A program made the position numbers and the translations under genes. Below are positions 1 to 16,728 of a DNA stretch of 16,728 nucleotides, piece after piece. The DNA is taken from the NCBI GenBank assembly GCA_016203375.1, contig JACQMX010000021.1, positions 1-16,728 of the forward strand. The letters are read 5' to 3'. The DNA is from Candidatus Woesearchaeota archaeon (GTDB lineage Archaea > Nanobdellota > Nanobdellia > Woesearchaeales > UBA12501). Each line of letters opens with the position of its first letter. Within the stretch, counting starts at the first letter, position 1. Below the pieces are notes generated by a model. That model did no database searches. It saw nothing but the letters and a program-made list of their open reading frames with translations, and was not told the DNA's origin.

Positions 1-36
1 ATATTTTATTACTTATTGGTGATAAAAAAGGAAAAA

Positions 37-44
37 TTTATATA
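37..44 (+). promoter_or_regulatory. TATA box for the L,D-transpeptidase gene
   Basis: TTTATATA preceded by an A-rich stretch that could serve as a BRE. Archaeal transcription normally begins about 25-30 bases downstream, here near base 67. That places the transcript start just ahead of the AGGTG ribosome-binding site and rules out the in-frame ATG at 48, which would not be transcribed. Confidence 0.7.
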
Positions 45-68
45 CTAATGAAAAAAATGTATTACATC

Positions 69-73
69 AGGTG
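69..73 (+). promoter_or_regulatory. Ribosome-binding site selecting the ATG at 81
   Basis: AGGTG is complementary to the conserved CACCT near the 3' end of 16S rRNA. It ends seven bases before the ATG at 81. Together with the TATA box at 37-44 it decides the start in favour of 81 over 48. Confidence 0.7.
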
Positions 74-80
74 GATTATC

Positions 81-965
81 ATGGATCGAAGGGACTTTTT
101 AAGATCAATCGGGCTTGTCGCAGCAGCCTATGGGCTTGACCACATACTTCGATCACCAAGAAGTTTTGCTGATGAGCCTGCATCTGTCAGCCAGGATCTA
201 GCTCAATTAGTAGAAGCTAATGCTAAACAGCTTTTTTCAGAAGATCCATTTGAAATGCTCAACCAGCAGTTTTGCATTGGGGACGGTCCAGCTGCTAAAA
301 CGAAGATTCCAGACAATAATCCTCTTGATCTCGATAAACGTTATCAGTATTCTTCCGATGATCTTTCGCGCTATGGTGGGTGGGTTCGGCAGACAGTTGA
401 AGAATCAAAAAGAAATAAAAATATTGCTTTTCTTATTGATAAAGCAGCATATACACTTTATGTAATAAAGAATGGATTTGTACATGCTTCACATACTATT
501 GAACTTGGTAATAATCCTTTTGATGATAAACAGATCGCAAAGGATAAAACCACTCCAGAAGGTCTCTATAAAATTGTAAAAAAAATCCCACATTCAACCT
601 TCTATAAGATGCTTCTCATCGATTATCCGAATGATCACGATCTTCTCGAATTTGAGAATTTTAGAAAGGAAGTAAGAGAAAATACGATGTTGCAAGAGGA
701 ATTACGAGCGAAGATACGGGCGAAGAAATTCAATCCTGATAAAATCTCTATAGGCGGCGATATTGGGATCCATGGCTATGGTTCCGGCAAGGCAGGCAAT
801 GGAGAAGGCTGTAATTGGACGGCCGGTTGCATCGCTCTCACGGATACAGACATGGATACAATTTATGACTATGCGAAGGTCGGCACAAGAGTGACTATTG
901 TGAAATATGGAGCCGACATCGCTCTTAAGGATTCATCGCGATTGGCTGGCTCACTCCAGAAGTAA
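81..965 (+). CDS. Tat-exported L,D-transpeptidase (YkuD family)
   Basis: 294 residues from the ATG at 81. YkuD enzymes are cysteine transpeptidases that in bacteria cross-link peptidoglycan or attach proteins to it, outside the cytoplasm. The N-terminus MDRRDFLRSIG carries a twin-arginine motif, a modest hydrophobic stretch and a plausible cleavage site near SFA-DE around residue 30, so export folded through Tat is likely. The YkuD domain spans roughly residues 113-277. It shows the TPEG-Y segment, the IHG histidine (H231) and the nucleophile in NWTAGCIAL (C250). The family's usual arginine after GC-I is alanine here, as I recall for YafK-like members. The 3' end overlaps the convergent gene by 41 bp. 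The family call is firm. The substrate is open, because archaea are not expected to make murein. Confidence 0.88.
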   Translation: MDRRDFLRSIGLVAAAYGLDHILRSPRSFADEPASVSQDLAQLVEANAKQLFSEDPFEMLNQQFCIGDGPAAKTKIPDNNPLDLDKRYQYSSDDLSRYGGWVRQTVEESKRNKNIAFLIDKAAYTLYVIKNGFVHASHTIELGNNPFDDKQIAKDKTTPEGLYKIVKKIPHSTFYKMLLIDYPNDHDLLEFENFRKEVRENTMLQEELRAKIRAKKFNPDKISIGGDIGIHGYGSGKAGNGEGCNWTAGCIALTDTDMDTIYDYAKVGTRVTIVKYGADIALKDSSRLAGSLQK

Positions 966-3129
966 CCGCTATCCCATTAGGGTATTGATTAGTATAGAAT
1001 TTCCAAGTCCCATCTGATTGCTTTACATAAATCCCCATTCTCTTTCCTTCGATGGCTGATTCTTGATCATACGTCCAAGAGCCTTGAGCATTTCTATCGC
1101 TTCTTGCACCAGCAAGTTGTTTTTCTGATGAAGCAAGAACCTCACGGGCATACGTATCATAATTTTCAGCTGTTGAGAGGGCTCTCATACTATTTGTCCA
1201 AATAGTTTCATCATGTAATGGCGCTCGCGTATCATATCCAATAATCACTTCTGCATTTGGATATAAGCCTTCCATGGTTTGTAAAAATTCCTCAGCCTTT
1301 GCTTCCTCATATTCTGGGTTCATAACAGTATGGCATGCACTAAACATTATTGCCTCTATGTTGGTAGATGGAGGGAGCTGATCGAAAACGACTTCTCCAT
1401 TCTCTCCCCAAATCTTATCATCTCCTGTATAATGATGTCCGGTCAAGACTAATACATCTGTATCCTCAAGCGAAATAAAAGGGATATCCTGAGCAGTATA
1501 CCCGGCGCACGCTATGGAACTTGTATCAGCAGCTCCTCTGCATGTAGCTGTTTGGCCTGATGTCGCATCAGCGGCAATGTGCGTTACGTGCTGTCTTGGA
1601 TTCTCGACATCGTTATTAATCCTAGCTACCTCCGCGCATGCGGCTCCACTTGGGCAAACGCCTACAACGCTTTTTCCTTCCTGATACCGGACATATTGGT
1701 TGAACAGTTTGCCATCTTTCTCAAATTGATAATTAATCTCCGCAGAGCCTAATGCGATATTCCCCTCGACAGTAAATGGATTGAGTTGATCGTTGGAGAA
1801 ATGATACGCTACTCTTCCACCATCGCTGAACGTGACTTTGCTCATATCGGTAATTCTTTCAACATCAACAAAATTCAGTGAATAATCATGAAGCGTAACA
1901 TCAATATTATTGTTGCCCATTGCTTTCATTGCCAGCCAGCCCTTATACGCACCTTCCTCTGTTTTATGTTTCATGATGATGCAGCTTCGCGTGCACGCCT
2001 CGATCGGCGGAGCATCTTCAATAAATGTATTTCCGCTTAAAGCATAATGCACATCATATACATCAGTATCTTCAGAAACGGTAATAGTTAAGGACTTTCC
2101 ATCTCTATTCAGATCGTCAGGCGTTTTTGTCCTAGGAGATGGGAGGGGTTTCTGCTCTACATTGCCATACGTTGTGTACGTGCTTCCTGCTTTCAATATG
2201 CGATGGCTTCCGGTAACGCCGGCGATTGTCATTTCTCCATTAAGGAAAAATGCTTTTCTGCTCTCAAAGATTTGTTCTTCAGGAAGTTGCATGATGCTCC
2301 TTGATTCGCGAAAGGCATATATTTCACCTTTAAGGTTTATCTCGTTCTGTCCAATGGTCATGTCGAGATTTCCCTCAGGTGAACCATAGACGAAGCCCTT
2401 GTATTGCAGAATCCCATTTTGCATATGGATATTTTGAAATGTTTCTATGCCAGTGAAGCTTGCCTTGCCGCCTTGAATGTCCAGGTTGAAACCACCTTCA
2501 CCACTCGCCATGACGCTTGTTGCGCCGGCTATCGTTACGCTTCCAGTGACTCTTTCTCTCAATCGCTCACCGGCGATATCAAGAACCAATGCGCCTGTAG
2601 GGAGTACCTTTGCTTGGCTTCCTTCGGGAAGGTAGAGCGCGACGGCAATGTCAAAGGTTGTTCCTTGGCTTCCGAGTGTTGTCGCTTGCCGTCCATCGAA
2701 GCTTGCAAGATCTGCCCCTGTGTCAGTGATATCGTATGTTGCGAACCATTGCTGCTTGATCCCTGGATTGCCATTAAGGATGCCAATATTGCTCTGCGCC
2801 CTCCGCTCGAGATCAGCCCGTACTTGCTGGTTCGATCTGATGAGTTCTGGCTCTGTGTTTAAGGCTCTGGTAAAATCTTGGTCGCCAATGGTCGCGATGA
2901 TATCTGGGTGCGCCGTCATGGCGTCCAGGAGAACCTCCGGACTTGCGTGCTGAACCATTGATGGATCTATTCTTCCTTGTGCTATCGCCGCCGCAAGATC
3001 ATCTGCGTTCATACTGTTAATTTCCTCAGGATTGGTGATCTGTTCTTGCTGTTGCTGCTCTTCCTGCGCGATAATGGTTGCAGTGAGCAGCAGAAGCATA
3101 ACAATAATAATGGTAGTACGCATTTTCAT
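925..3129 (-). CDS. Secreted multidomain protein with C-terminal CHAT/caspase-like domain
   Basis: 734 residues. A Sec signal peptide (MKMRTT, then a run of I/V/M/L, then QEEQQQQ) covers about residues 1-22. Residues 40-110 are predicted helical. Residues 125-320 are a Gly-rich series of short beta strands, possibly a solenoid. Residues 345-480 are also beta-rich. Residues 557-660 resemble a clan CD peptidase: a hydrophobic strand ending in TGHH (H565/H566), then a hydrophobic strand ending in FSACHT (C599), then a strand IIGYDTRAPLHDE, which resembles the CHAT strand that follows the catalytic cysteine. Six other cysteines fall in close pairs (379/383, 492/498, 530/541), which suits an extracellular disulfide protein. 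The start is set by GAGGT five bases upstream. It is the second gene of an operon, three bases after the GQITIF gene. The CHAT call is motif-based; the rest of the protein is unrecognised. Confidence 0.75.
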   Translation of the reverse strand: MKMRTTIIIVMLLLLTATIIAQEEQQQQEQITNPEEINSMNADDLAAAIAQGRIDPSMVQHASPEVLLDAMTAHPDIIATIGDQDFTRALNTEPELIRSNQQVRADLERRAQSNIGILNGNPGIKQQWFATYDITDTGADLASFDGRQATTLGSQGTTFDIAVALYLPEGSQAKVLPTGALVLDIAGERLRERVTGSVTIAGATSVMASGEGGFNLDIQGGKASFTGIETFQNIHMQNGILQYKGFVYGSPEGNLDMTIGQNEINLKGEIYAFRESRSIMQLPEEQIFESRKAFFLNGEMTIAGVTGSHRILKAGSTYTTYGNVEQKPLPSPRTKTPDDLNRDGKSLTITVSEDTDVYDVHYALSGNTFIEDAPPIEACTRSCIIMKHKTEEGAYKGWLAMKAMGNNNIDVTLHDYSLNFVDVERITDMSKVTFSDGGRVAYHFSNDQLNPFTVEGNIALGSAEINYQFEKDGKLFNQYVRYQEGKSVVGVCPSGAACAEVARINNDVENPRQHVTHIAADATSGQTATCRGAADTSSIACAGYTAQDIPFISLEDTDVLVLTGHHYTGDDKIWGENGEVVFDQLPPSTNIEAIMFSACHTVMNPEYEEAKAEEFLQTMEGLYPNAEVIIGYDTRAPLHDETIWTNSMRALSTAENYDTYAREVLASSEKQLAGARSDRNAQGSWTYDQESAIEGKRMGIYVKQSDGTWKFYTNQYPNGIAVTSGVSQPIAMNP

Positions 3130-3132
3130 GAT

Positions 3133-4173
3133 TTACCTCTCGATGATCATGCGCATGAGCGCAATGTCGCTATTTCCTCTATCATCTTCTACTTTGATAA
3201 AAATGTTCTCTTCCCCGCTTGGCAATGATGAGGTATCAAATTCAATCATGCCAGTCTCCGGATGGATGGTAAATAAATTTGTGTACACGGTAAATCGGAG
3301 GTTTTCCCCAGTGGCTTTGACTTGGTAACGCAAGACTTGAGGTTGGGTAATCCTGAATATTGGAATGGGTTCTATTCTTACTGGAGACTCGCCTCCAGGG
3401 ATGCCTTCCCAGCGATAACGAATAGCGAATGCGTAGATGAATGGCTCGTTTGGCGTTTCATTAAAATTGAAAAAGAAGAGCGCCGTGCCGTCACCGAACT
3501 GGAGCAGGTTGTATGTAAAATTCTTCTCATAGGCAACACCCGCCAAATAGCCAAGCAGGATGACGTTTGGGTTTTGTTCTTGTTGGTTTATGAAATTATG
3601 TATGATGTCATATTTACTTTTGAAGTCGAAATCAATCGTCTTTCGAAATATATCCAGCTTTATGGTTGAATCGCCGATAGTAAACGTTACTGGATACCTT
3701 ACCGTAATAGATAATGAATTTTCGGCGATAATCATATTTGTGGAGATTTCGCCAAGTTCAAAAGTATAGCCTTGCTCTCGAAAAGAGGCAAAATTATCAA
3801 TGCAGCGTGGCAATTCTGCTTGAAGGTATTTTACCAATTCCGATTCGATAATGGGAATACTCGGAACTTGAAATACTCCCTCATCAATATAATAAGGAAT
3901 TCTTACTTCATCTCGCTCTCGAAACGGCGCAGGAGTCTGGTTATATCCCCCTTGTCGCCCAAGAAAATAGATCCCTCGGCGCCCTACTCTATCGATGCAC
4001 GATTCCACAAATGTCTGGATGGATTGCCCTTCTAGTGTCACTGCTTGTTGTGCTTCTGGTTCTACTTTTTCTGTTATCCAGGAACGTATTGTTAAAGTAA
4101 GAAAAACACCAACAAGAAGGAGGATTCCAATGACAAGAAATATAGTGATCTGCCCTTTTTTTCTTTTTAACAT
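3133..4173 (-). CDS. Membrane-anchored GQITIF-type surface protein with C-terminal Ig/cadherin-like domain
   Basis: 346 residues. The N-terminus MLKRKKGQITIF is followed by one hydrophobic helix (about 10-30), so the rest should lie outside the membrane. The basic-Gly-Gln start resembles archaeal class III (type IV pilin-like) signal peptides, though Phe stands where pilins have Glu at +5. The body aligns by eye with the 8798-11221 product: a cysteine before a GGY element (C59), an IPYY segment, and a second cysteine before F--FR-QGY (C124). The last 75 residues contain FTIHPETGMIEF and end in a VEDDRGN strand, typical of cadherin/He_PIG-like Ig folds. The start is the ATG about 33 bases after a TATA box, so the gene is nearly leaderless. 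It leads an operon with the CHAT-like gene. Function is unknown; I recall similar proteins in DPANN genomes. Confidence 0.8.
   Translation of the reverse strand: MLKRKKGQITIFLVIGILLLVGVFLTLTIRSWITEKVEPEAQQAVTLEGQSIQTFVESCIDRVGRRGIYFLGRQGGYNQTPAPFRERDEVRIPYYIDEGVFQVPSIPIIESELVKYLQAELPRCIDNFASFREQGYTFELGEISTNMIIAENSLSITVRYPVTFTIGDSTIKLDIFRKTIDFDFKSKYDIIHNFINQQEQNPNVILLGYLAGVAYEKNFTYNLLQFGDGTALFFFNFNETPNEPFIYAFAIRYRWEGIPGGESPVRIEPIPIFRITQPQVLRYQVKATGENLRFTVYTNLFTIHPETGMIEFDTSSLPSGEENIFIKVEDDRGNSDIALMRMIIER
3135..3139 (-). promoter_or_regulatory. Ribosome-binding site overlapping the upstream stop codon
   Basis: On the minus strand GAGGT lies five bases ahead of the ATG at 3129 and its last base is the first base of the TAA stop of the upstream gene. 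This supports translational coupling of the two genes and the ATG at 3129 over the in-frame ATG at 3123. Confidence 0.65.
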
Positions 4174-4198
4174 TATTGTCTATTTGTACGCTGGTTGG

Positions 4199-4206
4199 TA
4201 TATAAA
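4199..4206 (-). promoter_or_regulatory. TATA box for the minus-strand operon
   Basis: On the minus strand the sequence reads AAAACCTTTATATACC, a strong TTTATATA box with an A-rich BRE-like flank. Its first T is 33 bases ahead of the ATG at 4173, so the transcript should begin at or within a few bases of the start codon. Confidence 0.7.
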
Positions 4207-4245
4207 GGTTTTGCCACGAGGTTGTGGTCTCTTTGAACCATAAAC

Positions 4246-4253
4246 CTTAAAAA
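4246..4253 (+). promoter_or_regulatory. TATA-like box for the lipoprotein operon
   Basis: CTTAAAAA, 31 bases ahead of the ATG at 4277. The match to the TATA consensus is weaker than the others in this window. The spacing predicts a leaderless transcript beginning at the ATG, and excludes the in-frame GTG at 4256, which lies between the box and the expected start of transcription. Confidence 0.5.
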
Positions 4254-4254
4254 T

Positions 4255-4268
4255 AGTGGCTTGCCACT
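4255..4268. promoter_or_regulatory. Inverted repeat between TATA box and start, possible operator
   Basis: AGTGGC-TT-GCCACT is a perfect inverted repeat with six-base arms and a two-base spacer. It sits just downstream of the TATA-like box and upstream of the predicted transcription start at about 4277, where archaeal repressors commonly bind. A related, less perfect CCAC-N6-GTGG arrangement lies at 4214-4227 near the minus-strand promoter, and the GCCAC element recurs exactly 50 bases apart (4213 and 4263). Regulatory function is inferred. Confidence 0.4.
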
Positions 4269-4276
4269 TCACTTGT

Positions 4277-5041
4277 ATGCGTTCCTCCATTGTTATGGTG
4301 TATCTCATTTTTCTACTTTCCATAGCTATGCTGCTCTCCGCCTGTCTTCAACTGCTTCAACCGCGTGAAGCACAAACAGGCTCTTCTCCAGAAACAACGG
4401 CACCAGAACTTGTTTTTGGCAAAGTCAATACGTTTCGTGATGGTTTCATGGAGATGAAAAAGATCGATGAAAAATACAATACAGATTTCCATAAAGAACG
4501 CCTGGGAAAACTTGTTGTGGATAGTCGTGATATGCCTGCCATGGAAGAAGATATCTATAAGCTCCTTGAGCACATCACTGGCACCCGTAATATCGATTTT
4601 GAAAAGGTATCACATAAGAGAAATAAAACAGAGACCGATTTAGTGCTTCTTTTTATCGCGACACGTCTTAAAATGCTTGAATCTGAACTGTATTTTCAAC
4701 TTGGTTATAAATATGGCAATGCTGGTCTCGTTGGAGATGGTTTCTTTTGCAGCGAACAGCCATATATCTTTGAATCGCTTGATGCTTTCAATGCTTCGGT
4801 GAGGAAAGGTCTTGATGCAAGTTATTATATGGATGTTATGTTAACACAAACAAATGAAATAACACATGCTCTCGTTGGTATTGATGAAGGTAAACCTGAA
4901 TTTTATAAAATACCTTTCCAGACTATGGGCGCACAACTTCGCAAAAATCATAATCTTGTCACGAAATATTGCGCGAATCAGACTGGAAAAGATACTTATG
5001 TGATGGTAGAAAATACAGATATTGACGATAAAAGGGAATGA
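4277..5041 (+). CDS. Predicted lipoprotein of unknown function
   Basis: 254 residues from the ATG at 4277. The N-terminus is MRSS, a hydrophobic stretch and then the lipobox LSAC with Cys23, so the mature protein is probably lipid-anchored outside the membrane. The mature part is mostly predicted helix. It includes a FIATRLKMLESE-YFQLGYKYG segment and two further cysteines (C158, C232). I recall lipoproteins with this RLKMLESE-YFQLG pattern in Woesearchaeota, but no function is known to me. The start at 4277 is preferred to the GTG at 4256 because it lies 31 bases after the TATA-like box and gives a normal signal peptide. The TGA stop overlaps the next gene's start (ATGA), indicating an operon with the zinc-ribbon gene. 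Confidence 0.8.
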   Translation: MRSSIVMVYLIFLLSIAMLLSACLQLLQPREAQTGSSPETTAPELVFGKVNTFRDGFMEMKKIDEKYNTDFHKERLGKLVVDSRDMPAMEEDIYKLLEHITGTRNIDFEKVSHKRNKTETDLVLLFIATRLKMLESELYFQLGYKYGNAGLVGDGFFCSEQPYIFESLDAFNASVRKGLDASYYMDVMLTQTNEITHALVGIDEGKPEFYKIPFQTMGAQLRKNHNLVTKYCANQTGKDTYVMVENTDIDDKRE

Positions 5042-5478
5042 TGATGGCGCTCAAACAACCAGAATCAATGGATGAATGTATTTATTTTACTCGGCGTACA
5101 TTGATGGGTACAGGAAAGGTAATGGCATGGGTTTTCAAGCAGCCTTGTCCGAAATGTAAAAAAGCAATGATGGGTAAACCAGTTGATGAGAAAGGCCATG
5201 TCAAGATCCGCGCGAAAGAGTATGTTTGTCCTGCCTGCAAGTACACCGTAGAAAAAAGTGAGTACGAAGATACACTTACCTGTGACATTATTTATACTTG
5301 CCCGAAATGCAAGCACCAAGGGGAAACGAGCGTACCCTTCAAGCGCAAAGCATGGCAAGGCGTTAAGGCGATTGTTTTCGAATGCGGCAAGTGCAAGGAA
5401 AAGCTTGGCGTCACGAAAAAGATGAAGGAAGGAAAGAAGAAAAGTACAGAAGAGATTGATGATGAGGATGATTTCTGA
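5038..5478 (+). CDS. Double zinc-ribbon protein, conserved hypothetical
   Basis: Up to 146 residues. Two C4 zinc ribbons are plain: CPKC (37/40) with CPAC (64/67), and CPKC (88/91) with CGKC (116/119). The tail is Lys-rich and then acidic (KKMKEGKKK, ending DDEDDF). There is no signal peptide or membrane segment, so it is cytoplasmic and could bind nucleic acid or act as a transcription/translation accessory factor. Zinc binding is well supported, the role is not. Three ATGs in a row (5038, 5041, 5044) leave the start uncertain, with a fourth candidate at 5068 just before DECIYFTRR. No strong ribosome-binding site is seen, so coupling to the overlapping lipoprotein stop is likely. A T-rich terminator follows. 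Confidence 0.8.
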   Translation: MMMALKQPESMDECIYFTRRTLMGTGKVMAWVFKQPCPKCKKAMMGKPVDEKGHVKIRAKEYVCPACKYTVEKSEYEDTLTCDIIYTCPKCKHQGETSVPFKRKAWQGVKAIVFECGKCKEKLGVTKKMKEGKKKSTEEIDDEDDF

Positions 5479-5479
5479 G

Positions 5480-5496
5480 TTTTTTGAAGATTTTTT
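5480..5496 (+). terminator. T-rich terminator after the zinc-ribbon gene
   Basis: Two runs of six T (5480-5485 and 5491-5496) begin two bases after the stop codon. Oligo-T runs without a hairpin are the usual intrinsic terminator in archaea. The next gene has its own TATA box at 5541, consistent with a transcription unit ending here. Confidence 0.55.
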
Positions 5497-5540
5497 ATTT
5501 AGATATTCAATATTCTTTCTTACCTATCTTTGTAACAATA

Positions 5541-5548
5541 TTTATAAA
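5541..5548 (+). promoter_or_regulatory. TATA box for metG
   Basis: TTTATAAA in an A/T-rich flank. Its first T lies 30 bases ahead of the ATG at 5571, which predicts a leaderless metG transcript and excludes the longer reading frame from a TTG at 5484. Confidence 0.7.
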
Positions 5549-5570
5549 CCTACACCAGCACAGCGCACTC

Positions 5571-7832
5571 ATGGCTAAAAAAGCAGTGCCAAAGGCATCA
5601 ACCAAGAAACCAGCGAAGAAAAGCTCAATTATTATTACAAAACAGATTAAACAGATTAGTAAGAAGAATCCACATGCTGCTTCACTTATTCCCCAATGCA
5701 AACCAACTCTTGTCAAACCAGCAAAACTGTCTGGTAAGATTGTCGTCACCGCGGCCTTGCCCTACGCCAATGGCCCAATTCATCTTGGCCATATGGTGGA
5801 GTACATTCAAGCGGATATCTATTCACGTTTTCTCAAGCTTGCTGGAAAAGAGGTAATCTATTGCTGTGCCGATGACACGCATGGGACGCCGATTGAGATC
5901 AACGCCATGAAGGAAGGCATCGCGCCTGAACAATTGATAGACAGGTATCACCGCGAGCATCAGCAGGACTTTAGTGATTTTCTTGTCGCCTTTGACAATT
6001 TTTACTCTACCAATAGTCCAGAAAATAAAAAATATGCTGAATATTTTTTCAAGAAGCTTCAAGAAGCAGGATTACTCTATCAAAAAGATGTTGAGCTCAC
6101 CTATTGCGAAAAATGCTCTCGCTTTTTGCCTGATCGCTACGTGAAAGGTCGCTGCCCGAAATGCAAGACAGATGATCAGTATGGTGATGTGTGTGAGAAG
6201 TGCAATGCGACGTATACAACGACGGATCTTGTTGATCCCTATTGTACCATTTGCGGCACAACGCCGGTGAGAAAATTATCTCGACATTATTTCTTCAAGC
6301 TTAGCGCGTGCAGTGACGCATTAAAAAATTGGATTAGCAATCATCCAAAACTGCAAAAGGAGGTTAAGCACTATGTCCTCAATTGGGTCAATGAAGGCTT
6401 GAAGGATTGGTGCATTTCTCGGGATGGTCCATACTTCGGCTTTCGCATTCCTGGAGAAGATGATAAGTATTTCTATGTCTGGCTTGACGCCCCTATTGGT
6501 TATATAGCTTCCACGACGAATTATACTGCGCGGCATAAGCAGGATATTGATGATTACTGGAAACGTGGCAGCGTTATTCACTTCATTGGCAAAGACATTA
6601 TCTACTTCCATCTCCTCTTCTGGCCTGCAGAATTGATGGTAACCGGCTTTACCCTGCCTGAAAATATTATCGTCCATGGTCATCTGACGGTCAATGGTGA
6701 AAAAATGTCCAAATCCAGGGGAACCTTTATCACCGCGCGTGAATATCTTAAATTACTTCCTCCAGAATACTTGCGTTTCTATTACGCGGCAAATCTTTCC
6801 CATACCATGTCTGATATTGATCTTAATTTTGATGACTTCCGCAACAAGGTGAATAACGAGCTTGTCGCGGATCTCGCCAATTTTACCTACCGCACCCTCA
6901 GTTTCGTGAACAAGAATTTTGACTCGCGTGTCACCAGTTTCTCCCCGAAATTTGCGGAGAAACTTGGTCAAGGCCTCCCGCGTCTTTTCCAGGCCATTCG
7001 TGCGGCCTATGAAGACGTCAATTTTAGAGAAGCTGTAAAGCTTATCCTTGAGGCAAGCTCCTTGGGAAATAAGGTATTTCAGGAGAACGAGCCGTGGAAA
7101 CTGGTGAAGACAGACAAGGCAAAAGCGCAAGAGGTAGTTTCCTTCTGCGCGAGTTTGATTAAGGATCTTTCCATCGCGGTTGCGCCAATCTTGCCAAATT
7201 TCTCTACGCAGGTGCAACAACAGATAACGGTTCGTGATCTGTCTTGGAAAGATGTTGGCGTTCCATTGAAAGATCACACTATCGGTGAGGCGAAAATCGT
7301 CTTGCGCAAGCTTGAAGGCGAGATTGATCGTCTAAAGCCAGGGCCTTCTGGCGAGGCTGACCCTTTTGCGAAAGTGGATTTGCGCGTTGGCAAGATTCTC
7401 GAGGTTAAGAAGCATCCGGACGCGGAAAAACTTTTTGTTGAAGTGGTGGATCTTGGAAAATTGGGAAAGAGAATTATCGTTTCTGGCCTCGCTCAATATT
7501 ATCATCCTGATGAGTTGGTTGGCAAGCATGTTGTTATTGTCGCAAATCTCCAACCAGCAAAGCTTCGTGGTGTGGAACGCCAGGGCATGCTGCTTGCTGG
7601 TGAAGATGCAGCAGGCAATGTTGGTGTGCTTGAGGCGCCGCAATCCGATTCGGGAAGTCAGGTGTATGTTGAAGGTATTCTGTCAAAACCATTGCCCCAG
7701 ATCATAATTAAGGAATTTGAGCAAGTACACATCAACATTGAGAGCAATGTTGCCGTGTATAAAGGCAAGTCGTTGAAGACGGAGTTTGAGGAAATTGTTT
7801 GTGACCGCATTGAACGAGGGAATGTCCATTAA
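5571..7832 (+). CDS. metG: Methionyl-tRNA synthetase
   Basis: 753 residues. The cytoplasmic enzyme charges tRNA-Met with methionine using ATP, for both initiation and elongation. Class I signatures are clear: HLGH (residues 71-74) after ALPYANGPI, and KMSKS (378-382). Four CxxC knuckles within the connective domain (C179/182, C195/198, C208/211, C225/228) give the two-zinc form. NEPWKL marks the helical anticodon-binding domain. From about residue 597 there is a C-terminal tRNA-binding OB fold (DLRVGKI, HPDAEKL, QPAKLRG), then about 55 further residues. The catalytic core, which usually starts within a few residues of the protein's end, begins here only at about residue 55, after a Lys/Ser-rich tail (MAKKAVPKASTKKPAKK). 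The start is the ATG 30 bases after the TATA box. It appears to be a monocistronic gene. Confidence 0.97.
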   Translation: MAKKAVPKASTKKPAKKSSIIITKQIKQISKKNPHAASLIPQCKPTLVKPAKLSGKIVVTAALPYANGPIHLGHMVEYIQADIYSRFLKLAGKEVIYCCADDTHGTPIEINAMKEGIAPEQLIDRYHREHQQDFSDFLVAFDNFYSTNSPENKKYAEYFFKKLQEAGLLYQKDVELTYCEKCSRFLPDRYVKGRCPKCKTDDQYGDVCEKCNATYTTTDLVDPYCTICGTTPVRKLSRHYFFKLSACSDALKNWISNHPKLQKEVKHYVLNWVNEGLKDWCISRDGPYFGFRIPGEDDKYFYVWLDAPIGYIASTTNYTARHKQDIDDYWKRGSVIHFIGKDIIYFHLLFWPAELMVTGFTLPENIIVHGHLTVNGEKMSKSRGTFITAREYLKLLPPEYLRFYYAANLSHTMSDIDLNFDDFRNKVNNELVADLANFTYRTLSFVNKNFDSRVTSFSPKFAEKLGQGLPRLFQAIRAAYEDVNFREAVKLILEASSLGNKVFQENEPWKLVKTDKAKAQEVVSFCASLIKDLSIAVAPILPNFSTQVQQQITVRDLSWKDVGVPLKDHTIGEAKIVLRKLEGEIDRLKPGPSGEADPFAKVDLRVGKILEVKKHPDAEKLFVEVVDLGKLGKRIIVSGLAQYYHPDELVGKHVVIVANLQPAKLRGVERQGMLLAGEDAAGNVGVLEAPQSDSGSQVYVEGILSKPLPQIIIKEFEQVHINIESNVAVYKGKSLKTEFEEIVCDRIERGNVH

Positions 7833-7861
7833 TTTTCCATTCTGGAGTAGTCCTAACGAAA

Positions 7862-7873
7862 CCTATTTATAGG
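7862..7873 (+). promoter_or_regulatory. Palindromic TATA region for the five-helix membrane protein
   Basis: CCTATTTATAGG is a perfect 12-base inverted repeat (CCTAT-TT-ATAGG) containing the TATA element TATTTATA. The ATG at 7895 lies about 29-31 bases downstream of the box, so the transcript is probably leaderless. A direct repeat GCACTTT (7873-7879 and 7888-7894) occupies the space between box and start. Confidence 0.6.
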
Positions 7874-7894
7874 CACTTTCTCTCAACGCACTTT

Positions 7895-8743
7895 ATGGGA
7901 AAAAAGAGGGCCATGACGACTAAAGGTTCTTCAAAAGTCATTTCGCGAAAGCGTAGCCTTACCTTACCACCACCAGCTGAACACAAGCGGCAAGCTGAAT
8001 TTCCACTTCATGTGCAGATGCCGCATCTTGGCTTGAAGCTCTTGTATTGGTACACAATGGTGCTTGGTGTTTTGTATGTTTTTTACTTCTTCGCCGGCTT
8101 GTACAATCCAAGCTTGTTTTTACTGAAAAGCTATGCTTCATTGATAATCGATGTCGTGCTGATTGTGCTTCTCTTTTATATCTTCTATGGTTTCAAGAAT
8201 AGGCGTTACTGGGCGTGGAAACTGAGCATGCTTTGGTATACTTTCGCTGTTATCTATTCCATACTTCTTGTTTATGTGCTTCGCCAAGGCCTCTATACCA
8301 TTTCTCGGGAATTATTTATGATATCCTCATTTTTCCTCATTGTCATCAATGGTCTCATCGTTTGGTACATTTATCAGAAGCGTGATTACTTTTTGGATAA
8401 GATGCATCGAGAAGTCTTCGGCATTAAAGACAAGTTCTTTGTCTACAGCATTGTCTGCTTTTGGGCGATGCTTCTCACTATTGGCATTACCGTTGGAATT
8501 AAGTTTTATCAGGACACAACGCAACTCGCTGATTCCTTGATTAATGAGTTAAGCGATATCGCCATGAAAGGAGATTGGCAGGAAGGCAATCTTCGCTGTG
8601 CCGCGAAAAGTGGTGCGGGCAAGGACGTTTGCTATGTGGTATTGGCCACTATTTCTCATGGCAAGGCAGATTATTGTGGAAACATAGAATCGCATGTATA
8701 TCGCTTTAGCTGCCGTCATGCAGTATTGTCAGAAAGGGCTTAA
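7895..8743 (+). CDS. Five-helix membrane protein with cysteine-bearing tail, function unknown
   Basis: 282 residues. A basic, probably cytoplasmic N-terminus (1-45, rich in Lys/Arg) precedes five hydrophobic segments at about 47-68, 80-100, 106-130, 139-160 and 181-203. A soluble tail of about 80 residues follows. The tail has four cysteines (C235, C246, C261, C273) in the pattern C-x10-C-x14-C-x11-C, including CYVVLA and YCGNI. It resembles a short Cys/Ala repeat (C-x-x-x-A, then D-x-x-x-C-x-x-I) that I recall in other DPANN membrane proteins. With a cytoplasmic N-terminus and five helices the tail would lie outside, where disulfides can form. The start is the ATG at 7895, leaderless from the TATA box. 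An ATG at 7913 is possible but too far from the box. No family name can be given. Confidence 0.75.
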   Translation: MGKKRAMTTKGSSKVISRKRSLTLPPPAEHKRQAEFPLHVQMPHLGLKLLYWYTMVLGVLYVFYFFAGLYNPSLFLLKSYASLIIDVVLIVLLFYIFYGFKNRRYWAWKLSMLWYTFAVIYSILLVYVLRQGLYTISRELFMISSFFLIVINGLIVWYIYQKRDYFLDKMHREVFGIKDKFFVYSIVCFWAMLLTIGITVGIKFYQDTTQLADSLINELSDIAMKGDWQEGNLRCAAKSGAGKDVCYVVLATISHGKADYCGNIESHVYRFSCRHAVLSERA

Positions 8744-8755
8744 TAGAACGAAATA

Positions 8756-8763
8756 TTTAAATA
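8756..8763 (+). promoter_or_regulatory. TATA box for the 807-residue GQITIF gene
   Basis: TTTAAATA, predicting a transcript start near 8785, just ahead of the GAGG ribosome-binding site. A second A/T-rich element, TTTAAAAA at 8773-8780, would place initiation inside the gene and is less likely. Confidence 0.55.
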
Positions 8764-8787
8764 ACAGACGGATTTAAAAATAGAAAA

Positions 8788-8791
8788 GAGG
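8788..8791 (+). promoter_or_regulatory. Ribosome-binding site GAGG
   Basis: GAGG ends six bases ahead of the ATG at 8798, with the predicted transcript start only a few bases upstream. The gene therefore has a short leader with a Shine-Dalgarno sequence, unlike the neighbouring leaderless genes. Confidence 0.55.
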
Positions 8792-8797
8792 CGTATA

Positions 8798-11221
8798 ATG
8801 GGTCAAAAAAGAGGCCAGATAACAATATTTATCATTGTAGGTGTTATTCTCCTATTCTCCGTAGCCCTTATCATCTATATCCGTTCCCGCGCTGTTGAGG
8901 AAATCCCCTCCGCACAAGTGCCTGTGGCTATTGCAGAAGTGCCAGCAGAGCTACAGCCTATCAATAATTATGTTCTTGGCTGCTTGCGACAGACATCCAC
9001 TGACGCGCTTACTGCAATAGGAGCGCATGGTGGGTATTTGGGAGTTACGACTGATGATTCAATAGAATATGGATTACCTACATTTTCCTTTACTTCTGCT
9101 GCGGCTGGCATGACGCCCACTGGAGATGATGGTATTTCTGTCTCTCCTGATTGGCAAGTGCCCTATTGGTTTTACATGAAGAGCCAGAATACTTGTCAAG
9201 CTGGCTGTGAGTTTGGCAATCTTGCTCCTTCATTAGAGGGGGATGAAAGTTCTTCTATTAAAAATCAAGTACAACAATATGTCAACAAGAATGTTGTTAC
9301 ATGCCTGAACAATTTCCCACAGTTTAGGCGGCAAGGATACACGATTACTCCAACTGCTGACCCAATTTCTGCTGCCGTGTTTGCAGAAAAGGATGTTGCG
9401 GTTTACCTTGAATATCCACTGCGTATTGTGAAGGAAGGTGCTGAATCAGATCTGAAGCAGTTCTTGGTGCGATTGGATGTGCCGTTTAAGAGAATTTACG
9501 AGCTGGCGAGTGATGTTGCTCAAGTTGAAGCAGAACAACGTTTCCTCGATGTCCATGCGCTTACACTTATTGCTATTTATGGCGGAATGGATAAAGAGCG
9601 ATTACCTCCTATGGCTGGGACTGACTTAAGTTATGTGCCTATCTTCTGGTTTAAATCTGAAGTTCAGGAAAAGCTTCAGAACATTCTCACTGCACAAACA
9701 TCTAGTCTGCGGGTAGCAAATACTCGCAACTTTGTCGAATTCCGTGATTTTGGTGATGACTTATTAAAAACGACACTTTATCGAAAAAAAGCAGTGCCAT
9801 TTGCAAAAACGTATCCTGATCTCGATGTCGAGTTTAATTATCTTGGTTGGCCTATCTATTTATACATAATGCCGGGTGAGCTTATACGAGCGCGCGAATC
9901 TTTCTTAGGGAAGGTATTCATAGCCCTCATTCCTTTACAGCGGTACGATCTTCCATATGATGTATCCTATCCTTCGCTTGTCCAGGTTCATGATGATTAT
10001 GCATTTGCGGGTAAAGGTTATGATTTCTTCTTTGGATTAGAGGCAAATGTCCGTAACAATGTGGTGCTTGATGAAACTTCAGCAGGAGTTGCTAGCCAAT
10101 TGGCTGGTGGCGCAGATTCTGGACAGCTTTGCGATCCACGACAACGAAATAGCGGCGATTATACGGTCCGCGTGCAAGACCATCAAGGCAGGCCAGTTGA
10201 TGGTGCAGTCGTGTCTTTCGCTTCTTCTGTTCAGTTCTGCCCAATTGGAAGGAGTGAACTCAATGCACAGGGCACCATTGCAACCTTTGCTGGCAAATTC
10301 CCAACTGGCGCCATTGGTGCATTGCTTGTCGAGAAAGCCGGTTATACTACACATGTCAAGAATTATTTTAACCCAAAAACAGAAAATACAGAACTTGATC
10401 CTATTGTTCTCAAGCCTGTTATAAATAAATCAGTTCTGGCAAGAAAAGTCAATGTTGATTTCCTCACTGTTGATTATGTTGATACTCCTGCGGGAAGTAT
10501 ACCAGTAAAAGGTTGGGTTCTGCGACCAAGTGATCAGCCATTGCAAGCTAATGAAAAACTCACTGTTATAATGGAGCGGCAGAAAGAAAATCCATTTGAA
10601 AGTGCTTTCGTTGCATTTGTTGAAGTGAAAGGATCAGATATGACAAAAAAGATAAGTCTGATCCCTGGAACTTATAAGATGACCGTCATCCTTGTGCGTG
10701 AAGGCGAAGATGTTATCATTCCTGAAGATTATCGCTGTGAAGGTGGCGTTTTAGGCTTTGGCGAAGAATGCTTTACCTTGCCTGAAGTTCATCTTGATTC
10801 TGGCGGCGGAATGAGCGATGCTGGTGTTCCAACAACAAGCAGAGAAGAAGCTTTTGGCAATGTTGATGAAGCAATGGCTCAAGGCGAGTCTTTGCCGCCC
10901 GAACTTGAAACTGACTATGCGACTGCACGAGAATTACCACCTCCTCCTGAAGGGATGCCGGATCTAGGTGCTGCGGCAACTCCAGAAAAAGTGTTCCTTG
11001 AAGGTCAGTACGTACTAGAAAACGTAATAATTGGTAATGAGATTTACACGACTAACTCTCCGCTTAAGCTAACAGGCATAAGTTGGAATCTTGTAGCCTT
11101 GCCAGAAGGAGAGAGGAAGCACGAGCATACTGAAACTTTGGGCAAGCTGCAAGAAATGGTTGATGCAAATCAAGCTCTTTTCCTGCCGCGGTATGGAGCA
11201 AGCGGAGGCGCAGTTGGCTAG
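8798..11221 (+). CDS. Large GQITIF-type membrane-anchored surface protein
   Basis: 807 residues. MGQKRGQITIF and one hydrophobic helix (about 8-28) anchor a long external part. The first 260 residues are paralogous to the 3133-4173 product: C62 before GGY, a VPYW segment, C169 before F-QFRRQGY, and a following beta-rich stretch. An extra CQAGC pair (133/137) is inserted. Residues 454-525 (DYTVRVQDHQGRPVDGAVV, then a strand ending VEKAGY) look like a carboxypeptidase-regulatory-like beta sandwich. Residues 550-665 form another beta-rich region. A Pro/Glu-rich linker (about 680-735) leads to a final segment ending GASGGAVG. No catalytic motif is seen, so a structural or adhesive surface role is inferred. 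The longer length compared with its paralogue comes from these C-terminal modules. Confidence 0.8.
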   Translation: MGQKRGQITIFIIVGVILLFSVALIIYIRSRAVEEIPSAQVPVAIAEVPAELQPINNYVLGCLRQTSTDALTAIGAHGGYLGVTTDDSIEYGLPTFSFTSAAAGMTPTGDDGISVSPDWQVPYWFYMKSQNTCQAGCEFGNLAPSLEGDESSSIKNQVQQYVNKNVVTCLNNFPQFRRQGYTITPTADPISAAVFAEKDVAVYLEYPLRIVKEGAESDLKQFLVRLDVPFKRIYELASDVAQVEAEQRFLDVHALTLIAIYGGMDKERLPPMAGTDLSYVPIFWFKSEVQEKLQNILTAQTSSLRVANTRNFVEFRDFGDDLLKTTLYRKKAVPFAKTYPDLDVEFNYLGWPIYLYIMPGELIRARESFLGKVFIALIPLQRYDLPYDVSYPSLVQVHDDYAFAGKGYDFFFGLEANVRNNVVLDETSAGVASQLAGGADSGQLCDPRQRNSGDYTVRVQDHQGRPVDGAVVSFASSVQFCPIGRSELNAQGTIATFAGKFPTGAIGALLVEKAGYTTHVKNYFNPKTENTELDPIVLKPVINKSVLARKVNVDFLTVDYVDTPAGSIPVKGWVLRPSDQPLQANEKLTVIMERQKENPFESAFVAFVEVKGSDMTKKISLIPGTYKMTVILVREGEDVIIPEDYRCEGGVLGFGEECFTLPEVHLDSGGGMSDAGVPTTSREEAFGNVDEAMAQGESLPPELETDYATARELPPPPEGMPDLGAAATPEKVFLEGQYVLENVIIGNEIYTTNSPLKLTGISWNLVALPEGERKHEHTETLGKLQEMVDANQALFLPRYGASGGAVG

Positions 11222-11224
11222 TTG

Positions 11225-11264
11225 TAATCACTAATATTCAATGCTAGCGATAATCACTAATCAC
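11225..11264. repeat. TAATCAC repeats upstream of the Ig-like gene
   Basis: TAATCACTAAT occurs twice as an exact 11-base direct repeat (11225-11235 and 11251-11261), 26 bases apart. A third TAATCAC (11258-11264) overlaps the end of the second copy. The array lies within the 90-base gap after the previous stop codon and about 22 bases ahead of the TATA box. Activator or repressor binding is possible but inferred. Confidence 0.5.
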
Positions 11265-11285
11265 AGACGACAAATCCACAGAAAA

Positions 11286-11294
11286 ACATATAAA
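11286..11294 (+). promoter_or_regulatory. TATA box for the surface operon
   Basis: ACATATAAA. The TATAAA core at 11289 lies 23 bases ahead of the ATG at 11312 and 29 ahead of the in-frame ATG at 11318. By analogy with metG (28 bases) the second ATG fits leaderless initiation better. A GAGG at 11301-11304 suits the first ATG, but only if transcription starts upstream of it. Confidence 0.5.
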
Positions 11295-11311
11295 CTCGAC
11301 GAGGAACATTA

Positions 11312-14300
11312 ATGAAGATGAAAAGAGGACTTAAGGGCATTGCCTCATTCATGATATTTCTCATAGTTACGCTGCCCTTCTATGTTTCAAGCGTTATGGC
11401 TGCTCCTGATACACTGACTGTTGTAAAGACGTCAGGAGAAGATGGTGTTAGTGGTTTCCGTCGTGGTTTTGACGCAACAAAGATCACGGTCGAGGTTTCG
11501 CCTGATCCACCGCGCAGCGTTCAGCCAAGCCAGATCCAGTGGGTGCTGAATTACGGCGGAAATTCGACAAATCCATTTACGTGTTGTACGCAAAAGAGCG
11601 GCTCTGCCGCGTATACTTGTGTCGCAGACGGCATCATGAGCCCACTTACTTTTGGCACGTATAGTTATCTTGCATGTGGTGTTGGATGCACGTGTAATCC
11701 TGGTGAAGGAGTTACTACTTGCCGCAAGGAAACCACGATTACGACTGATGATGCGGCGCCAACCGTTACGTCAAAATCAGTTTCTCCTTCTGTTTCCAAT
11801 GGTGGTGACGCGACGCTTTCCTTGACGCTTGCTGACGGTATTGGTGGCGATGCGGCAATCTGCTCCGGCATTGGTACAGTAGATATCATGTACGGCAGCA
11901 TTTTGGTCGCCAGCGTTCTGGTGAACACAACTGCCTGCACGCATTCTTTTACGCAAACCTTCTCCTCAGCGAGCTTCCCGAATGGCAATGATTCGTTATG
12001 TATTTTCCCATCAGACCGGCTTGGCAATGTGCTTACAGGCATGACAAGCGAAAATTGCTTGTCGTTCGCGAAGGATGATACGCCACCAAGCATAAGCGAT
12101 ATTACATTACTTAGTGCTGAAGCTGACGTACCTATTAATTTTGTCAGCGCTGGTACGCCATCAATGCGTCTGAAGGCATTTGTAACATCATCCCTCTACT
12201 TTGGTGCTCCTACAGTAAGTGCAACAATCAGCAAGGCAGGAACGCAAGCGGCCACAACAACGTTTAGCTGTGTCACTGCAGGTTCACCTGATGCATGGAA
12301 CTGTACATCAAACTCATTTAGTGTTGCTGTCGATGCCACAACAATACTTGATATTACTGTTACCGCAGAAGATGAAGGCGGCAATGAGGCAAGCGCGACC
12401 ACGAGCATTGGTGTTAATGTTGACACGGACCAAGGCCAGGTACTTGAGGTTGGTACAACCGTTATGCGTACGATAAATGGACAGCTCACTGGATTTGTCA
12501 CCTCAAAACGACCTAATCGGCTCTACGCGATTATTGCAGAATCGGGAGCAGGCTTCGCCGGAAATAAAGTATCTTTTAATCTTGCTACCGGCCAACACAT
12601 TCCGGCTACCTGTTCCCAACTAGATGCCTCAACATGGCTTTGTGAAAATACTGATTTTACTGTCTCAAGCACTTGGGGAGATAGCATTACCGGAACCTTC
12701 CAAGGCACTGATGACGCAGGCCAACAAGTAACACCATCCACATTTACATTTTACATCGACAGTGAATATCCGGAGTTTAACCGCATTGTCCTATTCAATG
12801 AAGGGCCAAATAATGCTGGACAAACCTTCTTCCTTTCTGGCGATTCCATGCTCATTAAGGTTTACTTTGATGAGAAACCATCGACTAAGGATAGACAAGC
12901 AGGCATGATGGATGATTTCAACACGATGAATGCTACTCTTGATCTTTCTAAAGTTACTGGCGAAACTGAGGCGCGATTACCAGAAGGATGCGGGTTCGTC
13001 ACAGAACTTACTCCGCTGCCAGAGGGAGAGAGTCCGCCTCCAGAGCTTGAAGGTCAATGGGTATGCTATTGGCATATAACAACACCAGCGCACCTTTTGG
13101 AGTTTAAAGTAAACATTGCTGATGCGCTCGGAAATAAGCCATCTCCTGCGAGCACGTCGTGGATGAAGGATGTTTATGTTGAATATGTTGATGCAGTAAG
13201 CGGCCAATCAAAAGAGATGTACGTTCCTGATGGTGTTACACCTGGCATCAGCGATGATGTTGTAAATCCTAACTGCTGGTTGCTGAAAGAGCCGCTTGAA
13301 GCAAATCCCCCTGTTGTTGATGCTGAAATTGCTTCCATTGCTGGCCACAATGTTTGGTACAAGCTTCATTTAGATCCCGAGTCGTGCGTTGCTGTCAATA
13401 ATAATGATGTGCGTCTTGCTTCGATTAATCTTGATCCTGCTACTTGTACTGGTGACACTGATGTTATCCAAGGTGCAGCCATCGTTACTCCTTCACCGAA
13501 TTCACAGGATTCTTATCTCAAACTGACCGTTGGTCCAGCCGAATTTACAGAGCAAGAGCTACGGCTTGATTGCGCCCTGACATTGATCTCGGATATGCCT
13601 CCGCGTGCTGGTCAAGATGAGCGGCGAATATCCCAGCCGGAGATAGAAAACTTTACTGCGATAGTACGTTTACAAGGGATTCAAGCTGTAGATGATGCTC
13701 TCATTGAAGAAATTAAAAATGTCAAGGAAGGCGTAGACCATGGGTTCATGGTCTTTTTGGATTATCTGAATCGCATTAGCATGTTTATTGATCAATTATG
13801 TAAGATTATCTATCTAATCAATACTATCAATCAGGTTGTTGCTGTTGTGCGTCTTGCAGTTATTCCTTGTCAAGGAATACCTTTCTGTAAACCTGCAGTT
13901 CCTCCAATAGACGGAGCAGCACGTACTACAAGTGGGACATTTAATGCGATAGTTAATGGTTTCTATTATGTTTGTCAATATAATTCCTGCAGGTATGGAT
14001 TCTGGTATTCTGACAAACTTGATGATGTGTACAATAATCTTGCTAATGGTGCCAATAGCGCACTTGCAGGTGGGTTCCAAGGCCCTAGAGGTCGGGTGCA
14101 AGTTCTTGGTCAAGCGCCAGCAACTGGTGAGCCGCCTAACTATCCTCACGAGGCGCTTCTTGGCAATGTTGCGGTATGGGCAAATCCAAAGAATAGCATC
14201 ATCATGAGCCTTCTCATGCTTTGCTTGCCTGGTATTGTTTTCAATCTTATGAAAGCACGACAAGTTGAATGTCAATACCTCCAGTGTCTTGCTTCGGAAG

Positions 14301-14743
14301 TTCCAACTGGCGCGCCAGTGGAAACGTGCGTTGCCATGCGAGCCTTTGGATGGTGTATGTTTGTCTATGGAGAAATATTCCAGCTTATCCCATTTTCTGC
14401 ATTTATTAAAGGTATGCTCGGTGCTATCGTTGGTGCTTTCCAAAGCGTGATGGGGATTGTTGGTTTAGCATTAGGATTAAGCTGTTGGCTTTTTAGCACT
14501 GGAAACCCTGAGGACTGGGTTGACGAGGCGTGTACAGTAATAAAATTACCTAAAATCTTGCAGGAATTTTGGGATACTATTAAAGGATTTCGAGATGCCC
14601 AGGCCTGGGGCTTTGGTGAAAATAGCTGCGATGCAGCAATCGAGAAAGCAGACGAAGTGATCGAAGCGCATGAAGAAGCGGAAGCTGCAGAAGAAGCAAC
14701 GATGCCGCCTGCTCCTCCAGCGCCGCCGACACCTGTCGGGTGA
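11312..14743 (+). CDS. Giant secreted/membrane protein with Ig-like repeats and hydrophobic C-terminal domain
   Basis: 1143 residues (1141 if the ATG at 11318 is used). A Sec signal peptide ends near VMA-APDT around residue 30. Residues 40-490 are beta-rich Ig-like modules, with junctions of the form DD-PP/AP followed by a strand (DDAAPTV, DDTPPSI, DSEYPEF). A central beta region runs to about 800. The C-terminus changes character: hydrophobic segments at about 811-855, 962-980 and 1030-1061, with a Cys-rich stretch between (ECQYLQC, ETCVAM, FGWCMF). I recall similar C-terminal domains in Woesearchaeota/Pacearchaeota. The protein ends with a Glu/Ala-rich helix (EAHEEAEAAEEA) and PPAPPAPPTPVG. 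It leads an operon, with the next gene six bases away. A surface scaffold or adhesin fixed by its own membrane domain is the best guess; the function is not known. Confidence 0.78.
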   Translation: MKMKRGLKGIASFMIFLIVTLPFYVSSVMAAPDTLTVVKTSGEDGVSGFRRGFDATKITVEVSPDPPRSVQPSQIQWVLNYGGNSTNPFTCCTQKSGSAAYTCVADGIMSPLTFGTYSYLACGVGCTCNPGEGVTTCRKETTITTDDAAPTVTSKSVSPSVSNGGDATLSLTLADGIGGDAAICSGIGTVDIMYGSILVASVLVNTTACTHSFTQTFSSASFPNGNDSLCIFPSDRLGNVLTGMTSENCLSFAKDDTPPSISDITLLSAEADVPINFVSAGTPSMRLKAFVTSSLYFGAPTVSATISKAGTQAATTTFSCVTAGSPDAWNCTSNSFSVAVDATTILDITVTAEDEGGNEASATTSIGVNVDTDQGQVLEVGTTVMRTINGQLTGFVTSKRPNRLYAIIAESGAGFAGNKVSFNLATGQHIPATCSQLDASTWLCENTDFTVSSTWGDSITGTFQGTDDAGQQVTPSTFTFYIDSEYPEFNRIVLFNEGPNNAGQTFFLSGDSMLIKVYFDEKPSTKDRQAGMMDDFNTMNATLDLSKVTGETEARLPEGCGFVTELTPLPEGESPPPELEGQWVCYWHITTPAHLLEFKVNIADALGNKPSPASTSWMKDVYVEYVDAVSGQSKEMYVPDGVTPGISDDVVNPNCWLLKEPLEANPPVVDAEIASIAGHNVWYKLHLDPESCVAVNNNDVRLASINLDPATCTGDTDVIQGAAIVTPSPNSQDSYLKLTVGPAEFTEQELRLDCALTLISDMPPRAGQDERRISQPEIENFTAIVRLQGIQAVDDALIEEIKNVKEGVDHGFMVFLDYLNRISMFIDQLCKIIYLINTINQVVAVVRLAVIPCQGIPFCKPAVPPIDGAARTTSGTFNAIVNGFYYVCQYNSCRYGFWYSDKLDDVYNNLANGANSALAGGFQGPRGRVQVLGQAPATGEPPNYPHEALLGNVAVWANPKNSIIMSLLMLCLPGIVFNLMKARQVECQYLQCLASEVPTGAPVETCVAMRAFGWCMFVYGEIFQLIPFSAFIKGMLGAIVGAFQSVMGIVGLALGLSCWLFSTGNPEDWVDEACTVIKLPKILQEFWDTIKGFRDAQAWGFGENSCDAAIEKADEVIEAHEEAEAAEEATMPPAPPAPPTPVG
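14739..14743 (+). promoter_or_regulatory. Ribosome-binding site overlapping the stop codon
   Basis: GGTGA, matching the anti-Shine-Dalgarno region of 16S rRNA, includes the TGA stop of the Ig-like gene and lies six bases ahead of the ATG at 14750. It indicates translational coupling within one operon. Confidence 0.65.
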
Positions 14744-14749
14744 AAAAAT

Positions 14750-16606: not shown

Positions 16607-16609
16607 GTT

Positions 16610-16728
16610 ATGGCATTGTTATCATTTAAATACGATTGGCAGCAGTATCGTGCTAGTTTTTGTTCTCTTCTATCGAAGAAAGCTCTCTACGTTGCGCTCA
16701 TTGATGCGGCTTTTTATTTTTTTATCAT
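16610..16728 (+). CDS. Start of a membrane-protein gene (cut by the window end)
   Basis: The first 39 codons of an open frame begin three bases after the previous stop and continue past the window edge. A GGTGG element ends eight bases ahead of the ATG. The peptide starts MALLSFKYDW, has a polar stretch and then the hydrophobic run YVALIDAAFYFFI, which looks like a first transmembrane helix. Spacing makes it the third gene of the surface operon. Nothing more can be said about its family. Confidence 0.6.
   Translation, partial: MALLSFKYDWQQYRASFCSLLSKKALYVALIDAAFYFFI

Follow-up and report, generated by a model that had tools for sequence, protein, structure and literature searches.

Genes and features of the locus

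The window analysed here is the whole stretch of 16,728 nucleotides (nt) from a Candidatus Woesearchaeota archaeon (GenBank assembly GCA_016203375.1, contig JACQMX010000021.1, positions 1–16,728). Near its left end lies a gene for an exported protein of 734 amino acids (aa) with a predicted caspase-type (clan CD) fold, between genes for an RGQ-type membrane protein and an exported YkuD protein (Table 1). The reading frame, the motifs TGHH (from residue 563; H565/H566), FSACH (from 596; C599) and IIGYDTRAPLHDE (from 629), and the residue numbering agree with an earlier, sequence-only reading of this DNA. Co-transcription with a surface protein had also been proposed there, and the RGQ gene is indeed located upstream on the same strand after a 3-nt gap; we take its N-terminus to resemble pilin-type signals. 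The product of the central gene begins with MKMRTTIIIVMLLLLTATIIAQ, which reads as a plain signal peptide, as had been claimed, and a helix is predicted at the corresponding position. The front had been described as long and beta-rich, which holds beyond residue ~130, while the part up to there is helical. Besides C599 there are six cysteines (379, 383, 492, 498, 530 and 541). Paired cysteines had been noted in that reading, and the pairs 379/383 and 492/498 are invariant in 11/11 aligned sequences, with C541 present in 9/11. The convergent YkuD gene and its 41-nt overlap had not been brought up there.

Table 1 Features of the caspase-fold gene and its neighbours in the window.
Feature	Position	Strand	Remarks
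Exported YkuD (L,D-transpeptidase fold) protein, 305 aa, convergent gene	48..965	+	RRDFLR signal; HG...TAGC kept
Tail-to-tail overlap of caspase-fold and YkuD genes, 41 nt	925..965	.	
Exported caspase-fold protein gene, 734 aa	925..3129	-	open frame
Predicted caspase-fold (clan CD) domain, residues 508–709	1003..1608	-	AlphaFold models and fold comparison
Codon of C599, predicted nucleophile, right behind strand 593–596	1333..1335	-	17/17 carriers
Codon of H565, predicted catalytic His, right behind strand 559–563	1435..1437	-	17/17 carriers
Front, residues 22–475	1705..3066	-	helical to ~130, beta-rich after, conserved C379/C383
Signal peptide, residues 1–21 (MKMRTTIIIVMLLLLTATIIA)	3067..3129	-	read from sequence; model helix 3–23
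RGQ-type membrane protein, 346 aa, KKGQITIFLVIG N-terminus, upstream gene	3133..4173	-	same gene type upstream of 14/14 front-plus-domain genes

A new sequence family with a predicted clan CD fold

The window protein gave nothing over cut-off or with a convincing E-value in Pfam, NCBIfam, PADLOC or PHROGs (no match at E up to 1 in the last two), and no PDB chain matched its sequence at E up to 1. Profile searches against CHAT, Peptidase_C14 and C25, suggested in the sequence-only reading, came back empty: there is no Pfam match to CHAT or another clan CD family at E up to 1, nor to C14, C11 or C25, in the window protein or in any of 13 family members, and no NCBIfam match to C14, C11 or C25 at E up to 0.1 in the window protein. 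Comparison of predicted structures gave support to the CHAT/caspase-like assignment made there. The AlphaFold model of the domain, built on a shallow alignment of 11 sequences, has a mean pLDDT (predicted local distance difference test) of 72 and a pTM (predicted template modelling score) of 0.77, with both candidate residues directly behind predicted strands. Clan CD chains, recognised by title, occupy 48 of the best 50 VIA-align rows for the domain model and 50 of the best 50 for the full-length model. Foldseek returned a best E-value of 1.1e-3 for the domain, with clan CD in 22 of the 50 rows listed and pyridoxal phosphate (PLP) enzymes and flavodoxins also present; the best 50 rows listed for the full-length model contain no clan CD chain. 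The proposed comparison with CHAT, gingipain and separase folds thus brought up clan CD chains, whereas gingipain (C25) and separase are not among the matches listed, a limited list that excludes neither. The predicted models show the caspase/haemoglobinase fold of clan CD, and G564, directly before H565, is kept in 17/17 genomes carrying the domain; a Gly adjacent to the catalytic His is described for clan CD cysteine peptidases in the available text of PMC4357240. On these models, the window protein is an exported member of a new sequence family with a predicted caspase/CHAT (clan CD) fold.

Relatives were rare. A first protein-database search (7,995 candidates scored) recovered only the window's own record, a first scan of genome contigs found no relative, and a region search with P0003 returned only P0003 itself. 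Whole-genome search of 60 genomes revealed shared sequence at three places in two other genomes; at one of the three, GF345_03980 (680 aa; Candidatus Woesearchaeota archaeon), the likeness spans nearly the full length. Among 352 genomes of the order, Woesearchaeales (genomes are given G numbers, loci L numbers), a profile built from two rows of the C-terminal domain identified 12 carriers and one built from 13 rows of the C-terminal half identified 17, the window's genome included; four rows of the larger profile (G183, G185, G217 and G221) were first met beside YkuD, and the smaller one is free of such rows. Carriers fall in families f1, f36, f39 and f61, the last contributing 12 of the 17.

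In an 11-row alignment H565, H566, S597, C599, G631, A636 and P637 are invariant. Loss of His/Cys conservation had been named beforehand as a possible refutation; 17/17 carriers retain the Cys together with the first His, and 16/17 retain the second His (G185 has TGHF), so that H565 is the likelier catalytic His. Judged by this conservation, the motif is more than chance. In three proteins the domain follows other fronts (L024, 5,965–7,539, G124; L025, 5,793–7,373, G123; L022, 5,381–6,730, G184), and the G184 protein has a lipoprotein-like MTTIMIAISAGC stretch within its frame. Bacterial contamination was considered and rejected, domain genes lying near genes that by eye look ribosomal (archaeal-type uL13/uS9 in G224 and G187; uS9-like in G185).

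Two groups of known proteins come closest in fold. The CHAT domain (SAVED-CHAT, PDB 8tl0) differs from the window protein, which is exported, has a Gly before the His and gives no Pfam CHAT match in 13/13 members; no defence partner was seen. Compared with the secreted C11 peptidase iotapain (PDB 6n9j, 6nag) and with clostripain (9cip), the window protein is without a PDB sequence match, has a different front, is archaeal and is paired with YkuD.

The gene unit and its exchangeable parts

The arrangement RGQ, then front plus caspase-fold domain, then a convergent YkuD gene was found by profile survey in 11 genomes (G000, the window's; G103, G183, G185, G187, G192, G203, G217, G221, G223 and G224), with a 100-aa frame between domain gene and YkuD in G217. 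We found no earlier report of this unit in the open-licence papers searched. The G184 domain gene has a different front and no RGQ, yet it too faces YkuD; altogether 12/17 domain genes lie tail to tail with YkuD, 10 of these 12 in f61. No facing YkuD is present at the domain genes of G001, G123, G124, G191 and G206: no YkuD was found in G123 (genome 76% complete), one lies ~8 kb away on the same contig in G206, and in G124 and G191 a second, X-type protein (see below) adjoins a YkuD. YkuD is present in 61/352 genomes of the order and in 16/17 domain carriers (Fisher p 1.6e-12, relatedness ignored); with the two-row profile the figures are 11/12 carriers, 8/12 facing YkuD. Among 50 further YkuD loci that do not belong to the unit, only one has an RGQ match no more than three genes away, a fused 829-aa frame of G007. 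The YkuD neighbourhoods analysed cover 60 of the 61 genomes (all except G349) with at least one, not every, place in each, and include L083, whose YkuD is not detected by our own YkuD profile.

The window YkuD matches PF03734 (E 6e-18; 66.3 bits, cut-off 23.4), and HG and GC are kept in 18/18 aligned copies, 16 of them from the gene unit. For 3/3 partner YkuD proteins scanned, the nearest NCBIfam model is LdtF/DpaA/YafK (E 1.1e-6 for the window's, 1.5e-5 and 1.5e-9), far below its 365-bit cut-off; NCBIfam describes the model as a peptidoglycan meso-diaminopimelic acid protein amidase. From sequence, transpeptidase cannot be separated from hydrolase, and either activity may apply. Twin-arginine-type signals are seen on the YkuD proteins of the window, G103 (L023) and G129 (L055). 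The RR signal of the window YkuD suggested twin-arginine (Tat) export, which is not claimed because TatC was not found in 5/5 genomes. Tandem YkuD genes with long fronts, apparently cytoplasmic plus membrane, occur unlinked to the caspase-fold unit at L046 (2,122–9,066, minus strand; G001) and L049 (4,716–8,284; G009).

A profile of the first 330 residues located the front at 13 places in 11/136 genomes, each preceded by an RGQ gene (13/13). The front is common, at least to approximately residue 300, to proteins with other C-termini: the caspase-fold domain ends four of the 13 (G000, G001, G103 and G192), Amidase_2 is present over cut-off in G001 (1.6e-15) and G009 (1.2e-18), and an SLT transglycosylase in G108 (5.3e-15). 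No Pfam match over cut-off was obtained for the C-termini in G008, G013, G032 and G327 or for the scanned parts of a second G103 gene. The G327 protein shows a Cys/His pattern by eye, and the G018 front gene is cut off. In G013 (L116, 2,499–4,940, minus strand) the C-terminal half has an HEYGH motif, metallopeptidase-like by eye. The second G103 gene (L118, 2,109–11,180, minus strand) encodes a 3,023-aa protein with the shared front and its own RGQ upstream, beside the YkuD of the caspase-fold unit; the Pfam scan covered its first 1,560 and last 563 residues. Within the fetched stretches, YkuD adjoins 11/14 caspase-fold units versus 0/7 units with other C-termini (p 0.001, relatedness ignored), the seven leaving out L117, whose front gene is truncated where the contig stops, as well as the second G103 front gene, which shares its locus with a caspase-fold unit. 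From the exchanged C-termini and this difference, front and RGQ therefore look like a platform, with YkuD going specifically with the peptidase version.

Two further proteins with H...C motifs occupy the slot between RGQ and the convergent YkuD, giving six units in all. X35 (970–1,040 aa; G120, G124 and G212) has an H in a VHVSSHS-like and a C in an SIRSC-like motif, both invariant in the three; two of the three were scanned and have PG_binding_1 matches that are weak and below cut-off (0.0023, G212; 0.14, G124). X51 (1,150–1,270 aa) fills the slot in G129 and G191, with aligned GH and GxC. In G193, reached by X51 homology alone, the gene ends RGHS...LLTGSC and lies between RGQ and a YkuD that is below the Pfam cut-off (E 0.0032) and matched by our own YkuD profile; this is the only unbiased X35/X51 case because the other five of the six units were found via YkuD loci. 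Because hhalign of the window domain with the C-termini of X35 (L035, L054) and X51 (L055) showed no relation (E 0.69, 0.25), likeness is claimed for motif and position only. Assignment of X35 and X51 to clan CD is our own, provisional reading of the motifs.

At least five front-plus-domain loci (L023, L030, L037, L041 and L097) have at their side a second RGQ gene accompanied by a large exported protein. In four f61 genomes the second RGQ gene and then the long exported protein adjoin the caspase-fold unit (L030, 8,774–12,532; L037, from 7,436 onward; L041, 2–3,958; L097, 3–3,428); 1,142–1,319 aa are readable in L030, L041 and L097, where the frame runs off the stretch, and the L037 protein is broken by masked bases. 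The window has a second gene for an RGQ-type membrane protein (8,798–11,221, plus strand; 807 aa), followed by two genes for large products with signal-like starts (11,312–14,743 and 14,750–16,606); no Pfam match over cut-off was obtained here.

Possible function of the unit

In a search of 17 genomes that have the unit or the domain, Mur_ligase_M was found in two (G124 and G129, a single gene in each) and the penicillin-binding protein (PBP) transpeptidase family in one (G103). G120, G123, G193 and G206 are outside the set searched, which contains several incomplete genomes (that of the window is 71% complete). Because of these counts, most of these archaea seem not to make peptidoglycan. The partner YkuD proteins are nearest to the LdtF/DpaA/YafK branch and differ from it in their setting, in archaea where Mur ligase and PBP were mostly not found.

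The reading that we prefer, at close to even confidence, is that an exported clan CD-fold cysteine peptidase (H565/C599) would work with YkuD, likely on the envelope of neighbouring bacteria. The beta-rich front and the RGQ membrane protein of the same unit would export the peptidase or display it on the archaeal surface, where, using H565 and C599, it would most likely cut envelope or wall-linked proteins. Acting together with it, YkuD would cut or re-form bonds at the peptidoglycan stem. The front would be a platform for an exchangeable C-terminal enzyme, which may be the caspase-fold peptidase, Amidase_2, the SLT transglycosylase or others, and the bacterial envelope is the best-guess target because the same platform carries Amidase_2 and SLT. 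The unit may form part of a toolkit used to attack neighbouring bacteria or to grip them. In a bolder version, possible and quite tentative, the platform with its interchangeable enzymes would be turned by Woesearchaea against the walls of bacteria; one such enzyme, the peptidase coupled to YkuD, would either strip wall-bound proteins or graft the archaeon's own surface protein covalently onto the bacterium's peptidoglycan.

Clan CD includes transamidases and sortase-like members, and peptidase and YkuD might instead process surface proteins of the archaeon itself (e.g. RGQ), trimming them and anchoring them covalently in a sortase-like manner, with no bacterium involved. This would fit the RGQ gene within the unit in 14/14 cases, the second RGQ gene and large exported protein at several loci, and peptidoglycan-synthesis families in few of the genomes searched. 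Amidase_2 and SLT on the same front, with peptidoglycan as their known substrate, the weak PG_binding_1 matches of X35 slot proteins and the chemistry of YkuD, which in known cases acts on peptidoglycan stems, point the other way, and we consider maturation of the archaeon's own surface unlikely. An improbable role for the caspase-fold domain is self-processing or release, freeing the front or activating YkuD outside the cell like the cysteine peptidase domains found in some large bacterial toxins; its C-terminal position, the long front and the tight gene pairing with YkuD would suit this, whereas the domain also occurs on unrelated fronts (G123, G124 and G184) and the front occurs with other C-terminal enzymes and without the domain. 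Were the fold call wrong, the domain would be a different alpha/beta enzyme or a binding module without activity. The shallow alignment, the pLDDT and the mixed Foldseek rows, with clan CD absent from those listed for the full-length model, leave room for this, and the VIA-align rows, the pTM and the invariant His and Cys right behind the expected strands argue against it, making it very unlikely. Least credible of all is a CHAT-type protease for defence or cell death, of the sort seen in many cytoplasmic systems: the cytoplasmic role is rejected on the signal peptide, the partners are exported, PADLOC gives no match for the protein, and the window's main genes match no defence family in Pfam or NCBIfam.

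The preferred reading, a peptidase acting with YkuD on bacterial envelopes, has parallels elsewhere. Archaea are reported to use peptidoglycan hydrolases to kill bacteria (PMC12352652), and predatory, peptidoglycan-degrading Woesearchaeota with a lytic transglycosylase have been predicted (PMC9723730), each according to the available text. Both share the idea of archaea attacking bacterial walls; the main text of the former does not mention YkuD, transpeptidase or caspase, that of the latter does not mention transpeptidase or protease, and neither reports the present gene unit in the available text. Polymorphic toxin systems, as outlined in the available text of PMC3482391, likewise combine a conserved front with an exchangeable C-terminal enzyme, a combination also found here. 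They differ in that the C-termini assigned here are wall enzymes and a predicted peptidase fold, and no known toxin-delivery system was recognised. No immunity gene was recognised in passing beside the units, and no dedicated search for one was made.

The exported caspase-fold family is real and new and lies inside a conserved, exchangeable gene unit, which is of more interest than the single protein. Many exported proteins of the smallest archaea are without assignment, and it is an open question by what means these cells hold on to their partners, feed on them or kill them. The result here is a named, testable gene unit that pairs an exported, predicted caspase-fold peptidase with YkuD on a front that elsewhere carries peptidoglycan-cutting domains. 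If the preferred reading is true, the caspase fold would have a part in contacts of archaeal with bacterial cells, and a context would be at hand for the YkuD enzymes of archaea in which wall synthesis seems mostly absent.

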